This document shows, piece by piece, positions 12,824-18,755 of a stretch of 64,000 bases of DNA. Where the stretch lies: positions 566,225 through 630,224 of the forward strand of contig NZ_CP013118.1 in assembly GCF_001443605.1 (NCBI RefSeq). Direction: 5' to 3'. Position numbers and translations under genes: made by a program. The notes beneath the pieces were generated by a model, which was not told the DNA's origin, ran no database searches, and saw only the letters and a program-made list of their open reading frames with translations. Each line of letters begins with the position of its first letter. Position 1 is the stretch's first letter. This DNA comes from Salinivirga cyanobacteriivorans (GTDB taxonomy: Bacteria > Bacteroidota > Bacteroidia > Bacteroidales > Salinivirgaceae).

Positions 12824-14020
12824 TTACAAAGTGCCTTTGCGGGCGAGTTTGCGAATAAGCTTAATTGTATTCATCGCAGTTATAAAGATAAAAATCAGCA
12901 TTATCCCGGCAGCCAACAGGTAGGTTGGCCAGATACTAAACTGTTTGATTTCAATATACCTCTCTGCCAAAAATTCAAGCGCCCTGGAAGTAATAATCTC
13001 AATAAATACTCCGCTGACAAATAACACTAACAGCGCTAAAATTACCTGAACAACAAAATAATAGCGAAAAATAACTATTGGCTTGTAGCCCAGTAATGTC
13101 AACTGATATATTTCATCTTTATTTCGCTGTACAGTCAACTGGAGCGTAAGCGCATAGACAATCAGAGCAAGCAAAATAATTAGTGATGCGATGAAGAGCA
13201 GAATACCACCACTCAAATGCACAAACAGGGAAACTTTACCCCCCTGAAAGGCGTCGTGAGTAGTTTCGTAACCTTTTTCTTTTAAAAAGGCATATAAATC
13301 TTTTTCCATATTAGGCTTAAGTTTTAAAATAAGCCTATCTGGTCGTGGATTTTTGGCTGGGTTGAACCGGGCATTTGCTGCTTCCAAAAAACCCATTGGA
13401 ACGAGCAATGATTGTATTCTGTTGGAAAAACCTGCTATTGATCCTGTAAATTTTTCCACTCTTCTGTTTCCGTATAGCGTAAGCTCAAAAGAAAACTGGC
13501 CAACTAATGATTTAGATACATTTGGTAAACCCTGCGCTTTGGCAAATCCAAAATTATAAAGGTCAAGATAATCTTTGGGAATAATGACCGGAATATGCTC
13601 CTGCCCCTTTTTCCAGTCCCACGCTTCGGGAACCTTATCCAAAAAGCGCTGCGGTACAGCTTCAAAAAACATTTCGGTACGCATATAGGGCATATTCGAA
13701 GAAGCATCTCGGGAGGCCTGTACACCAAATGAAGATCGTTGGTAAGGGGCCATATCGGCAACAAAATCAGCATGCCTAATCTCTTCTATCTCCTCAGGCT
13801 TAAAACCGCTCAGGTCTTTGCTCATTGTGTTCAATACGCTGATTTGCTTGTTTATTGTAACATATTGCTGACTCTGCCCTGCCCTGCTTTGAATAAAAGC
13901 ATTATAAAGATTCCATGCGCTAAATGTAGCCATAAGCAAAAAGAACCCCACCAAAGTGCCCAGAACCGCACCTGTGAAGTAACCCATTGGAATATTGCTA
14001 AAAAGAATTCTTCTAAGCAT
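12824..14020 (-). CDS. FtsX/MacB-like ABC transporter permease
   Basis: The 398-residue protein has the FtsX-family arrangement: one N-terminal membrane span (about 15-38), a large periplasmic domain (about 40-265) and three C-terminal spans (about 270-390), with a cytoplasmic loop 'RNKDEIYQLTLLGY' that contacts the ATPase. Such permeases move lipids or lipoproteins or use ATP to drive envelope events rather than pump solutes. It follows the ATPase gene after a single base and is the last gene of a three-gene operon on the minus strand. No outer partner is visible. Substrate unknown. Confidence 0.88.
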   Translation of the reverse strand: MLRRILFSNIPMGYFTGAVLGTLVGFFLLMATFSAWNLYNAFIQSRAGQSQQYVTINKQISVLNTMSKDLSGFKPEEIEEIRHADFVADMAPYQRSSFGVQASRDASSNMPYMRTEMFFEAVPQRFLDKVPEAWDWKKGQEHIPVIIPKDYLDLYNFGFAKAQGLPNVSKSLVGQFSFELTLYGNRRVEKFTGSIAGFSNRIQSLLVPMGFLEAANARFNPAKNPRPDRLILKLKPNMEKDLYAFLKEKGYETTHDAFQGGKVSLFVHLSGGILLFIASLIILLALIVYALTLQLTVQRNKDEIYQLTLLGYKPIVIFRYYFVVQVILALLVLFVSGVFIEIITSRALEFLAERYIEIKQFSIWPTYLLAAGIMLIFIFITAMNTIKLIRKLARKGTL

Positions 14021-14021
14021 G

Positions 14022-14666
14022 TTACAATATTATTTCCTCGTTAGCCTGCAAATAATCTTCGCTCATCAGGCGTGTTACAATAAAATTTGCAGACCGCACA
14101 TTGCACTCATTTCTAATTAAATCTGCTGTAATTTGAGCAGTTACAGGATCAAGGTGACTAAAAGGCTCATCGAGCAGCAACCACTCAAAAGGCTGGGCAA
14201 AAGCCCGCAAAACAGCAAGTCGTTGTTGTTGGCCGTAAGACATCAATCCGGCCTTTTGCGACATCTGTTGTTCAATGCCAAGAGTTTTCGCTAAGTTCTT
14301 TATCTGTTGGTCTGTCAACCTGCCGGTCAAACGATTTTTTATGTCAATGTTTTGTTTGCCTGTTAAATGCCTGAAAAGCCTCAAGCCCTGAAATACAGAA
14401 CTTATTTTATGGGTTCTTATGTGAGCCCAATCACTTAACTTTAAGTTATTTGCTGGTATATCTTCTATTATAAATTGCCCGTGATAGTCATTTCTAATTC
14501 CAAAAAGCACATTTAACAGCGTGGTTTTTCCCCTGCCCGAAGATGCAATTATTTCATAGTTATTTTCTGGAGTAAAGATACAGGAACCGTGCTGCCAAAA
14601 ACTGTTTTTGGCATGTGTCATTTCTTCCAAAGGATATGGCAACAGCCCTGATAAGGCTAGTTTCAT
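14022..14666 (-). CDS. ABC transporter ATPase, LolD-like, unusual signature
   Basis: A short 214-residue nucleotide-binding subunit. Walker A is ASSGRGKTT (about residues 41-49), Walker B is WLLLDEPFSHLD, and the signature loop reads MSYGQQQRLAVLRA instead of the common LSGGQQQR. The changed signature (SYGQ) keeps the Ser, Gly and Gln positions. Sequence between Walker A and the signature is normal in length. The gene sits one base before the FtsX-like permease and six bases after the small membrane protein, and the three likely make one exporter. In the LolD/MacB group these ATPases drive lipoprotein or lipid handling. Confidence 0.9.
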   Translation of the reverse strand: MKLALSGLLPYPLEEMTHAKNSFWQHGSCIFTPENNYEIIASSGRGKTTLLNVLFGIRNDYHGQFIIEDIPANNLKLSDWAHIRTHKISSVFQGLRLFRHLTGKQNIDIKNRLTGRLTDQQIKNLAKTLGIEQQMSQKAGLMSYGQQQRLAVLRAFAQPFEWLLLDEPFSHLDPVTAQITADLIRNECNVRSANFIVTRLMSEDYLQANEEIIL

Positions 14667-14672
14667 GTAAAA

Positions 14673-15359
14673 CTAGTTATAAAGAGGTTTGCGAATAAGG
14701 AAATAGATCACTATTTCAAATAACTCCGCTATAATGTATGTACCAAAAAGCACGCCTATGGACATGAAGAAACCGGTAATAAGCCCTATAAACCCATCTG
14801 TAAGTAATTGAAAGTAATCTGATGCGGTTTCAATAAAAACGGCTGCAAAAGTATTACCAATAAATTCATTTACCATGGTCGATCCAATTGATCCGGCCAA
14901 ATTGCCCAAAGATTCGATTGGAGCGTAAGGAATGGCAGATAAAATAATGGCAAAAAATGAGATCAGTGCTGCAGAAACCGGAATGACTGCAATTGCTTCA
15001 CCCAAAATTTTAATAAACCTGGGAAAAAGAAAAACAGCTCCGCCAAACTCACGTGTTTTAAAATCATTGGCTCGTTTCCAAAATATGGCAGAAATAGAAA
15101 AAAACATTCCGGCCGATATTGTAAAGGTAAAAATCAGGCAAATTATAGATCTTACCAGATCAAATGAATCAAGTGATTTGAGCATTGTAAGATAACCAGT
15201 TTTACCAAGCAATCCTGATACAAGTAGATAAGCTCCGTATATGGCTATTCCAAGAGAAGCAATCTTAAAAACAAAATAAAAAAGGTTCTTAAAAATTTTT
15301 CCTGTCTGCTGATCGAGTGAATCAAGCGGTTTAGCAATCAATTTTGAGTATAATCCCAT
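14673..15359 (-). CDS. unknown membrane protein in ABC operon
   Basis: A 228-residue protein with four hydrophobic segments (about 28-55, 68-95, 118-143 and 190-215) and no motif I recognise. The N-terminus (MGLYSKLIAKPLDSLDQQTG) is amphipathic. It is the first gene of the operon with the LolD-like ATPase and FtsX-like permease (gap of six bases), so it may be an accessory subunit or adaptor of that exporter. A mild glycine-rich stretch in the last span is consistent with helix packing. It could also be an independent membrane protein that shares the promoter. Confidence 0.7.
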   Translation of the reverse strand: MGLYSKLIAKPLDSLDQQTGKIFKNLFYFVFKIASLGIAIYGAYLLVSGLLGKTGYLTMLKSLDSFDLVRSIICLIFTFTISAGMFFSISAIFWKRANDFKTREFGGAVFLFPRFIKILGEAIAVIPVSAALISFFAIILSAIPYAPIESLGNLAGSIGSTMVNEFIGNTFAAVFIETASDYFQLLTDGFIGLITGFFMSIGVLFGTYIIAELFEIVIYFLIRKPLYN

Positions 15360-15444
15360 TTTTACCGGATTTTTTTTAGATTGTTATATACCATTTAAGT
15401 TTTAAATATAATACGATTTTCTTGATTGCGAAAAAAAAACTCTG

Positions 15445-16581
15445 CTACAAGTCCCTTTTAGCGCAAAATTCTTCAATCCTTTTAATTCCTTCCAGAAGCT
15501 CATTTTCGGGCCTGGCAATATTGAACCTGATAAAATCATGGGCTTTCTCACTGAAGTGAATACCCGGTATCACTGCTACTTCGGCCTCATCGTAAAGTTC
15601 CATTGTAAACTCAAATCCATCTTTGTTTCGTGGTAGTTTGGCCCAAACATAGTATCCTCCGTTTGCTTTAGGAATATCAAAGTTAAGTTTTAATAAACTC
15701 TTTTCCATTCGCTTATAAGCTGACTTCAATGTTTCACGCAGCCAATTCACATATGTTTCGCCATAATGTTTTTGTTCAAGATAATTGGCCAATGCCTGCT
15801 GTAAAGGCGCATTGGTACATAAACCAATGTAATCGTGAATATCTCTTAGCCCTTCAGTATGCGATGGATGAGATATAAGGTAACCGATTCGCCATCCGGT
15901 TACTGAGAGCATTTTGCTAAAACTGTTGATGTAAAATATTTGCGGACTTAAATCTTTTATTGGATAATGCGGTGGCTTTTCATAATATAAATTACTATAA
16001 ACAGCATCTATAATCATATAAACACCTTGGGAATCGCAAATACGCCGCAATTCAGTCATTTGTTGCTCAGTGAATACTGCTCCAAAAGGATTTCCCGGAG
16101 AGTTGACAAACATAACTCTTATATTATGATCCTCTATAAAACTCAGCAAATGGTCAGTGTCGAACTGTTTATGAGCATAGGCGTAAAAAGGTACGTTCAT
16201 TATGCGGGGCAGGTGCCTGTAACTTTCATAAACAGGATCAAATGCCATGGCAGCAAAAGGTTGGACAAGACTGTTTTTAATGTATTGAAAAACCAACGAC
16301 AAGGCCTCTGTTGCCCCCTGTAAGACAAGCAGCTGATCATCGTCAAACTGAAATTCTTTGTACTGTTCGAGTATTAATTTCCTGAGTTTTAAATTACCAA
16401 TTCCCGGTGCATATTGATGTATTTCATCATGTGCAATGGATACCAGTTGGTGCAAAAGTGCTTCGGGTGGATTATAACCCGGTATGCCCTGGGCAAAATT
16501 TATTCCGCCGTAGGTTTTTACCTTATTGCTCATAAAGCTTATTAGAGAACCCTGCGGCATTTTGTATTTATTTGTGCTCAT
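15445..16581 (-). CDS. PLP-dependent aminotransferase, class I/II
   Basis: The 378-residue enzyme belongs to the aspartate aminotransferase superfamily. The PLP-anchoring lysine is in SFSKMLSVTGWRIGYL (about residues 219-234); NSPGNPFG (about 160-167) and the Tyr/Asp pocket residues of the fold are present. It resembles methionine/kynurenine-type aminotransferases such as YbdL. It is the last gene of a three-gene minus-strand cluster (six bases after the MurU-like gene). The link to sugar salvage in the cluster is not obvious, so it may only share a promoter. Substrate cannot be read from the sequence. Confidence 0.9.
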   Translation of the reverse strand: MSTNKYKMPQGSLISFMSNKVKTYGGINFAQGIPGYNPPEALLHQLVSIAHDEIHQYAPGIGNLKLRKLILEQYKEFQFDDDQLLVLQGATEALSLVFQYIKNSLVQPFAAMAFDPVYESYRHLPRIMNVPFYAYAHKQFDTDHLLSFIEDHNIRVMFVNSPGNPFGAVFTEQQMTELRRICDSQGVYMIIDAVYSNLYYEKPPHYPIKDLSPQIFYINSFSKMLSVTGWRIGYLISHPSHTEGLRDIHDYIGLCTNAPLQQALANYLEQKHYGETYVNWLRETLKSAYKRMEKSLLKLNFDIPKANGGYYVWAKLPRNKDGFEFTMELYDEAEVAVIPGIHFSEKAHDFIRFNIARPENELLEGIKRIEEFCAKRDL

Positions 16582-16587
16582 AGCAGT

Positions 16588-17331
16588 TTATTGTTTGTTC
16601 CTTATTGCTTTTTCTGCTTGTTCTATTCGCGAAATGGTGCCAAGGTCAAACCATTCGTTCGGATTGTGCTTCCATCCTGCAATTTTAACCCCAGCATCCA
16701 TACTCAGATACCATGGAATTAAAGGAAAAGCATCATCTGTTTGCTTCGTCTTAATAACTTTTTTATTGACCAAATGAATGCCACTGAAAGCCAGCGAAAC
16801 GTCTGTATCGCAATTGAAACGTTTAATAAGTTCAGAGGTCTTTGTGTTTTTCCAACCACATAACTCATTGTCTTTAAACATGAGCTTACGGTTCGAGCGC
16901 CTGTCTGAAACAGCTAATGTGATATCATTATCGTTTTCAAAATGCGATTCTAGCATTTTTTGCAGGTCAAACCCGGTATGTAAATCAACATTGTGTACTA
17001 AAAGCACATCCTCATCATCATGCAATAATTTGCTGGCTTTGTAAAGTCCTCCTCCCGTATCGAGCAGTTTCTCAGTTTCGTCAGACACACGTATATCCAG
17101 CCTATCATTAAACGCATCCAGATAGTCTTTTATTTGCTCCGGGAAATGGTGTATATTCACTATAAATCGTCTGATCCCCAGGTCAGAAAGTTTATCTATG
17201 GTACGCCCCAGCATTGGATCACCCATAAAACTAACAAGCGCCTTTGGTTTCTGCCTCGTTAGTGGCATTAAACGTGTACCAAAACCGGCAGAAGGGATAA
17301 ATGCGACTAATTTCTTACTGATTTTTAGCAT
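16588..17331 (-). CDS. murU: MurU-like sugar-1-phosphate nucleotidyltransferase
   Basis: The 247-residue enzyme has the nucleotidyltransferase signature SAGFGTRLMPLTRQKPKAL (about residues 14-32), the ADP/UDP-sugar pyrophosphorylase loop with catalytic Lys, and a later metal-binding HNVDLH (about 114-119). In Pseudomonas, MurU makes UDP-MurNAc from MurNAc-1-phosphate, after AmgK phosphorylates MurNAc, bypassing de novo synthesis. Here the gene overlaps the AmgK-like gene by seven bases, so the pairing supports the cell-wall sugar salvage role. Other NDP-sugar enzymes (GlmU-like, mannose-1-phosphate guanylyltransferase) have similar motifs; the substrate is inferred from the neighbour. Confidence 0.82.
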   Translation of the reverse strand: MLKISKKLVAFIPSAGFGTRLMPLTRQKPKALVSFMGDPMLGRTIDKLSDLGIRRFIVNIHHFPEQIKDYLDAFNDRLDIRVSDETEKLLDTGGGLYKASKLLHDDEDVLLVHNVDLHTGFDLQKMLESHFENDNDITLAVSDRRSNRKLMFKDNELCGWKNTKTSELIKRFNCDTDVSLAFSGIHLVNKKVIKTKQTDDAFPLIPWYLSMDAGVKIAGWKHNPNEWFDLGTISRIEQAEKAIRNKQ

Positions 17332-18755
17332 TGATACGTAACTTTTTGAATTAAATGGTTAACTTGAATTACAATATCAGGGAAAATCTTTTTTAATTGA
17401 GAAGCCGTTTGCTCAGCGCAATATACACTTCTGTGCTGTCCCCCAGTACAGCCAAAACTAATTGATAAATAGTTAAAATCTTTATTTAAATATGTTTCGA
17501 TGTGTTTTGTACCAAATTCTATTGCATTTGCAATAAAAGCCTCAACTTCTTCATGTTTCTCCAGGTAATCTTTCACCTCCTTATCCATACCATTCATATT
17601 GGCATAATAAGGATCGCGTCCCGGGTTTGGCAGCATTCTGCAATCGAATACATAGCCACCTCCATGCCCGCTTGTATCAGGCGGCACACCGCCATCTAAA
17701 TATGAGAAGCTTTGTATTACCAACTTAAATTTTTCAGTTTGTTTATTTTCATATTCAGGAATACGTTCTACAAGTTCATGCAGGCACCTGCTAAGTTCAG
17801 GAACATGGTTTAACGCTGACAATGATGGTAAAATTGATTTTAAATTACGCAATGCCCTTCCAATTGAAGTTAGGAAATGTGTTTTACGCTGAAACAACCC
17901 TCTGAAACCATAGGCGCCTAAAACCTGCAGGGTTCTTAACAATGCATTTGGATAGTAGTAATCCATAAAACGTGCAGCATCAATATCGGTTTTTGATTCA
18001 AGTTCCGATAAATAATGCCTAAGGAGTTTATTCCTGTCATCTGGTGTTAAGTTGGCCTTGGCCTGATAAAGCAAAGAAGCCAAATCGTAGGCCAGCGGTC
18101 CCTTTCTTCCCCCCTGAAAGTCGATAAACCATGGCTCATCGTTTTTTAGGAGTATATTGCGACTCTGAAAATCGCGAAACATGAAATAATGCATTTCATC
18201 ATTGAGCAGTTGCCCGATAAAAGCATCAAAGTCTGTTTGTAGTTTTCGTTCGTTAAAAGTAATATCATGCAATTTCAAGAAATAGTATTTGAAATAATTC
18301 AAATCCCATTCAATGCTTTGCCTGTTGAATACCGGGAGCGGATAGTATTTACTGGAATCAATTAAACTCTGATTTATAGTCTGAAAATCGATGAGCGCTG
18401 AAAGTACTTTTTTATACTGATCGAGCAAATAATCATCTAAACTTTCAGTTTGACGGCCTGTAACCAGATCGTAAAGCATCTGATCGCCTAAATCGGTTTG
18501 AATATAATATTGCCGGGATTCATCAATTGCCAATACCTCTGGTACATTTAAACCTGCTTTACCAAAAACACCCGACAAATGAAAAAACGCCTCATTTTCA
18601 TCAATATCTGAATTCATGCAGCCGATTAACGACAGTTTTTTACTTTTTAACCTGTAATATTGTCTTCCAGAGCCACTTTTTTTGAAAAGTTTACTCACCT
18701 CAGGTACCTCTCCGGAAATATTCTGAAATAATTTTTCAAGCTTTGCTACATCCAT
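17325..18755 (-). CDS. AmgK-type sugar kinase fused to RapZ C-terminal domain
   Basis: The 476-residue protein has two parts. Residues 1-325 are an aminoglycoside-phosphotransferase fold with catalytic loop FRDFQSRN (Asp195, Asn200) and metal-binding FIDFQGG (Asp212), as in AmgK, which phosphorylates MurNAc or GlcNAc at C1. Residues 346-476 match the RapZ C-terminal domain: VIQSFSYLDGGVP, GHGGGYVFDCRMLPNP and ISFGCTGGQHRSV (432-444). In E. coli RapZ this domain binds glucosamine-6-phosphate and controls cell-wall precursor synthesis; the RapZ N-terminal nucleotide domain is absent here. It overlaps the MurU-like gene and shares its operon. The fusion suggests that amino-sugar phosphate levels gate the salvage kinase. 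That regulation is inference; the domain match is strong. Confidence 0.85.
   Translation of the reverse strand: MDVAKLEKLFQNISGEVPEVSKLFKKSGSGRQYYRLKSKKLSLIGCMNSDIDENEAFFHLSGVFGKAGLNVPEVLAIDESRQYYIQTDLGDQMLYDLVTGRQTESLDDYLLDQYKKVLSALIDFQTINQSLIDSSKYYPLPVFNRQSIEWDLNYFKYYFLKLHDITFNERKLQTDFDAFIGQLLNDEMHYFMFRDFQSRNILLKNDEPWFIDFQGGRKGPLAYDLASLLYQAKANLTPDDRNKLLRHYLSELESKTDIDAARFMDYYYPNALLRTLQVLGAYGFRGLFQRKTHFLTSIGRALRNLKSILPSLSALNHVPELSRCLHELVERIPEYENKQTEKFKLVIQSFSYLDGGVPPDTSGHGGGYVFDCRMLPNPGRDPYYANMNGMDKEVKDYLEKHEEVEAFIANAIEFGTKHIETYLNKDFNYLSISFGCTGGQHRSVYCAEQTASQLKKIFPDIVIQVNHLIQKVTYQC

Follow-up and report, generated by a model that had tools for sequence, protein, structure and literature searches.

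We identified a conserved module, and not an isolated case, in a gene encoding an AmgK-type sugar kinase fused to a RapZ C-terminal domain (RapZ_C) and its neighbouring gene for a MurU-like nucleotidyltransferase. The pair is encoded in a stretch of 64,000 nucleotides from Salinivirga cyanobacteriivorans (contig NZ_CP013118.1, positions 566,225 to 630,224; hereafter the window). The best explanation as a whole, to which we assign a probability of roughly 0.45, is that the pair represents the Bacteroidota form of the MurU route of anabolic MurNAc salvage, RapZ_C most likely being a MurNAc-6P phosphatase. According to this model RapZ_C would act in the step ahead of the kinase, C436 within its C-X5-R-S loop dephosphorylating MurNAc-6P, the product of AnmK; the MurNAc released would be passed to the kinase of the same chain and phosphorylated at C1 to MurNAc-1P, which the MurU-like enzyme would convert to UDP-MurNAc, by-passing MurA and MurB. 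RapZ_C would replace the HAD phosphatase MupP of Pseudomonas. The features in the window are:

17325-18755, minus strand: fusion protein (AmgK-like APH kinase plus RapZ C-terminal domain), one open reading frame, 476 aa
17781-18755, minus strand: kinase part, about residues 1-325, from motif conservation and structure search
17355-17726, minus strand: RapZ C-terminal domain, residues 344-467, from Pfam, alignment and structure
16588-17331, minus strand: MurU-like nucleotidyltransferase, 247 aa, from open reading frame and NCBIfam

The initial annotation had proposed an AmgK-type kinase and a RapZ_C domain joined in one protein, with the gene overlapping a MurU-like gene, and both proposals are borne out. 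Pfam places RapZ_C (PF22740) at residues 344-467 (E 1.3e-30, 106.5 bits against a cut-off of 27) and APH (PF01636) at residues 52-251 (E 1.2e-13); the scan of the fusion protein gives only APH-type and RapZ_C matches, the P-loop N-terminal domain of RapZ/YvcJ being absent and no HAD family being found. The AmgK models NF045759 and NF045698 are the top NCBIfam matches of the kinase part (9e-17 and 4e-14), and two MurU models, including NF045761, are those of the neighbour (1e-27 and 1e-26), its start sharing 7 nt (17325-17331) with the stop of the fusion gene. The AF2 model of the whole fusion is confident (pLDDT 90, pTM 0.73) and that of RapZ_C alone very confident (95 and 0.90). APH kinases dominate the Foldseek match list obtained with the whole model; the kinase part resembles APH-type kinases, 3csv being the first and nearest solved structure. 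The catalytic motif of the kinase, R194-D195-F196...R199-N200 together with I211-D212-x-Q214, is unchanged across 27 fusions, all of them containing the APH catalytic residues R194, D195, N200 and D212.

A survey of other genomes, which the initial annotation had suggested as a check, finds the fusion in 27 of 296 Bacteroidota genomes, the set used for all profile counts given here, and a scan of named genomes yields at least 585 relatives in several phyla, the best 80 of these at least 585 belonging to Bacteroides, Phocaeicola, Parabacteroides, Chitinophagales, Ignavibacteria, Calditrichota, Gemmatimonadales, Acidobacteriaceae, Elusimicrobia and others. Other fusions are about 38-44% identical to the window protein over the fused chain. 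RapZ_C was found in 36 of the 296 genomes, in 27 of them in a single chain with the kinase and in nine as a separate gene, which lies between kinase and MurU in seven genomes and apart from the kinase in two (G180 and G271). The kinase clade, defined by kinase-domain profile matches with E < 1e-70, is present in all 36 RapZ_C genomes, and 36 of the 37 kinase-clade genomes contain RapZ_C, the sole exception among the 296 being G009, which has kinase and MurU. The kinase of G230, a genome of the order to which the organism of the window belongs, groups with the Bacteroides kinases, pointing to Bacteroidales as the probable order. Of 79 fusion loci (named or related, some being incomplete), 52 have the MurU-like gene no more than 300 nt behind the fusion, and in a Bacteroidaceae MAG (RGIG7470, L144:3992-6274) kinase, RapZ_C and MurU form one frame of 760 aa. 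A chance or mis-assembled fusion is ruled out by the occurrence of the same build in more than 100 loci.

Comparison of the loci reveals no widely recurring neighbours other than kinase, RapZ_C and MurU, and a wider conserved operon is ruled out, the aminotransferase and ABC/FtsX-like genes of the window not recurring. In the window, the region 3' of the pair (12824-16581, minus strand) first encodes this class I/II aminotransferase (15445-16581). Next come a membrane protein of 228 aa that matches no Pfam family, an ABC ATPase and a permease of the FtsX-like type; none of these genes is conserved with the module. Stand-alone RapZ_C genes distant from the kinase occur at L059:6773-8493 and L056:7935-8336, the former directly followed by a membrane protein that resembles a transporter (MFS-like by eye) and might be a permease for muropeptides or sugars. 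The loci L149-L155, from small f18 genomes of two genera, perhaps Chlorobiaceae, contain a distant AmgK that adjoins a longer MurU (about 310 aa) or overlaps with it, and these genomes have neither RapZ_C nor AnmK.

Judged from sequence and genome content, the substrate of the kinase part is very likely MurNAc, phosphorylated at C1. The link to MurNAc salvage drawn in the initial annotation gains support from Tannerellaceae that have lost MurA and MurB and keep the fusion. MurA is missing in four of 60 genomes of the Parabacteroides chinchillae family, and a test of ten genomes showed MurB to be missing as well in all four. The genomes G333 (3.3 Mb) and G336 (2.8 Mb; loci L167 and L168), both of normal size and without MurA and MurB, have the fusion, which in G333 is overlapped by MurU by 4 nt. 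They resemble the published MurNAc-auxotrophic Tannerella in missing both enzymes. T. forsythia, a MurNAc auxotroph without MurA and MurB, has been credited with AmgK and MurU (PMC7670621), and these are functional in E. coli (PMC13041923). Taken with these reports, the retention of the fusion in G333 and G336 argues that the fused protein is very probably a MurNAc 1-kinase there; on the basis of the same two genomes, the T. forsythia AmgK already in laboratory use is probably one of these fusion proteins. Kinase and MurU-like enzyme might instead serve another sugar, e.g. an envelope sugar, their AmgK and MurU matches reflecting superfamily kinship only, as APH and NTP-transferase are broad families and the scores stay far under the equivalog cut-offs both for the kinase part (61 of 550 and 53 of 500 bits) and for its neighbour (97 of 250 and 93 of 370 bits). 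We regard this as unlikely, AmgK and MurU being the top models for the two genes, the module being retained in the MurA/MurB-less genomes and present in every genome with AnmK and without MurQ, and the T. forsythia AmgK and MurU performing MurNAc salvage in E. coli.

The assignment of RapZ_C draws on its distribution and on its pocket. RapZ_C together with the kinase is present in all 13 genomes that have AnmK and lack MurQ, which represent seven families and include the genome of the window, and in 13 of the 195 genomes having both enzymes. All 26 genomes with an AmgK homologue and AnmK contain RapZ_C, and the 64 genomes with an AmgK homologue and without RapZ_C include none with AnmK and none with MurQ. 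Since the product of AnmK is MurNAc-6P and the substrate of AmgK is MurNAc, the 6-phosphate must somehow be removed in the group with AnmK and without MurQ, a step that in Pseudomonas is the MupP reaction (PMC5371407, PMC5371409). In a published reconstitution in E. coli K-12 delta-murQ, amgK-murU depends on mupP except when MurNAc is provided (PMC5371409). RapZ_C is the only further conserved part of the module besides kinase and MurU. For the family of G009 a prediction set beforehand held: the fusion is present in all three genomes with AmgK and AnmK, with no counter-example, and the kinase-only genomes G418, G420 and G399 as well as the seed G009 are all without AnmK; this test is low in power, as most fusions of the family are in genomes without AnmK.

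The distribution also sets limits. The strict rule that RapZ_C occurs only with AnmK is ruled out, AnmK being missing in 10 of the 36 RapZ_C genomes, and MurQ too in seven of these ten. Kinases free of RapZ_C come from two lineages only, f18 and one clade of f17, so that the profile signal reflects few events, and as RapZ_C and kinase are nearly always together, the link to genomes with AnmK and without MurQ could be that of the kinase alone. Both the ten carriers without AnmK and the few independent lineages without RapZ_C speak against a phosphatase. In T. forsythia AnmK is reported missing and the 6-kinase MurK is present, and with MurK a MurNAc-6P phosphatase would result in a futile cycle. 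HAD proteins scoring below the cut-off of the PGP model TIGR01449, a result not informative on MupP, are found in 47 of 47 genomes tested, so a HAD-type MupP may be present.

The phosphate pocket is the most conserved part of RapZ_C. The domain resembles the C-terminal domain of E. coli RapZ (35-37% identity, 1.6-1.9 A over 123-126 residues; Z 20 to 5o5o, with 1.8 A over 126 residues and 36% identity), RapZ being its one strong structural match, and the window protein carries the loop C436-TGGQH-R442-S443, a C-X5-R-S loop of the cysteine-phosphatase type. Across the family the loop reads GCTGG[QRK]HRS, CTGG[QRK]HRS being kept in 114 of 115 RapZ_C domains. The pocket of E. coli RapZ has been likened to the P-loop of cysteine phosphatases, and hydrolysis of GlcN6P was proposed by Khan and Goerke (PMC7199280). 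Islam et al. reported that the C247A and C247S exchanges abolish function, that the ligand in crystals with GlcN6P is probably a transformed product, that this Cys also plays a part in binding RNA, a point against the phosphatase reading, and that H190A is inactive (PMC9841335). Four of the five E. coli pocket residues, T248, G249, H252 and R253, are retained in the fusions; the fifth, His190, is Gly in all aligned members (G379 in the window protein), and the fusions contain an added NGGG segment with a family-specific GGG at residues 365-367 of the window protein. The exchange of His190 for Gly and the NGGG segment could fit a bulkier sugar such as MurNAc-6P. RapZ_C shares with the cysteine-dependent phosphatases (PTP, dual-specificity) the succession of beta-strand, C-X5-R-[ST] loop and helix; its overall fold, unlike this local arrangement, matches theirs not above background (VIA-align), with dual-specificity phosphatases at Z 4.8-5.0, i.e. 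about 5, and PFK at 5.4-6.6, both within background in the structure search.

The initial annotation had interpreted RapZ_C as a GlcN6P sensor. In this reading the kinase is switched by the domain upon binding of GlcN6P or a different amino-sugar phosphate, which lets salvage track the precursor level; in the genomes with split genes RapZ_C acts as a separate regulatory subunit. The C-terminal domain of E. coli RapZ indeed binds GlcN6P and acts as a sensor (PMC7073468, PMC9841335), T248, G249, H252 and R253 being those retained in the fusions; first enzymes often carry fused regulatory domains, and RapZ_C is kept in genomes without AnmK, in which it is not obvious what substrate a MurNAc-6P phosphatase would have. 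A sensor leaves unexplained the link to AnmK and the constancy of a catalytic-type Cys, and the His190 required in E. coli is Gly in the fusions. We consider it a serious possibility at about one in three, and the C-X5-R-S loop and the Gly replacing His190 make catalysis on MurNAc-6P at least as likely as GlcN6P sensing. Quite improbable, and more so than a different sugar substrate, is RapZ_C as an RNA-binding or scaffold remnant, subjecting the enzyme to sRNA control or only tethering the kinase to MurU in an oligomer: the E. coli domain dimerises and binds RNA (PMC5737377), whereas the alignment of the window protein shows no counterpart of the basic RNA-binding tail at the C-terminus of E. 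coli RapZ, only Enterobacteriaceae are reported to have the RNA-binding part (PMC7073468), and conservation peaks in the phosphate pocket.

Weighing these observations, we rank the phosphatase slightly ahead of the sensor; the AnmK-less carriers, the few RapZ_C-free lineages, the linkage with the kinase and a possible HAD enzyme keep the two readings close. Phosphatase activity of RapZ_C is, in our estimate, just short of an even chance. A little more tentatively still, the fusion may be a bifunctional MurNAc-6P phosphatase/MurNAc 1-kinase moving the phosphate from C6 to C1, and RapZ may descend from, or still be, such an enzyme.

As in the AmgK-MurU salvage of Pseudomonas, Caulobacter and Tannerella, an APH-type kinase and a MurU-type nucleotidyltransferase are encoded together, and the expected route leads from MurNAc via MurNAc-1P to UDP-MurNAc; in contrast to these systems the kinase bears RapZ_C, the scores lie far under the family cut-offs and no MupP was identified. 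With MupP, the HAD-type MurNAc-6P phosphatase (PA3172, PP_1764), RapZ_C would share the conversion of MurNAc-6P to MurNAc, yet it is not a HAD protein and would be an unrelated cysteine-type substitute fused to the kinase. Compared with the RNase adapter RapZ/YvcJ, the C-terminal domain and its phosphate-binding loop are common to both, while the kinase takes the place of the P-loop N-terminal domain, His190 is changed to Gly, NGGG is added and the basic RNA-binding tail is missing. The initial annotation knew of no described system of this build, which holds for the open-access literature searched; the build itself turned out to be very common. In this literature, with subscription papers mostly outside its scope, no paper names both RapZ and AmgK, and the only one combining RapZ and Bacteroides concerns phage resistance in E. 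coli. The kind of pathway is known; the searchable literature apparently describes neither the fusion architecture nor the possible cysteine phosphatase.

RapZ_C, so far known from E. coli as an RNA-linked GlcN6P sensor, is given a place in the metabolism of gut and environmental Bacteroidota, and the module makes catalysis by its phosphatase-like loop directly testable. If RapZ_C is a phosphatase, MurNAc salvage in a major phylum would gain the phosphatase that it has been missing. The salvage route by-passes the target of fosfomycin, and the module bears on the dependencies of MurNAc-auxotrophic Tannerella.
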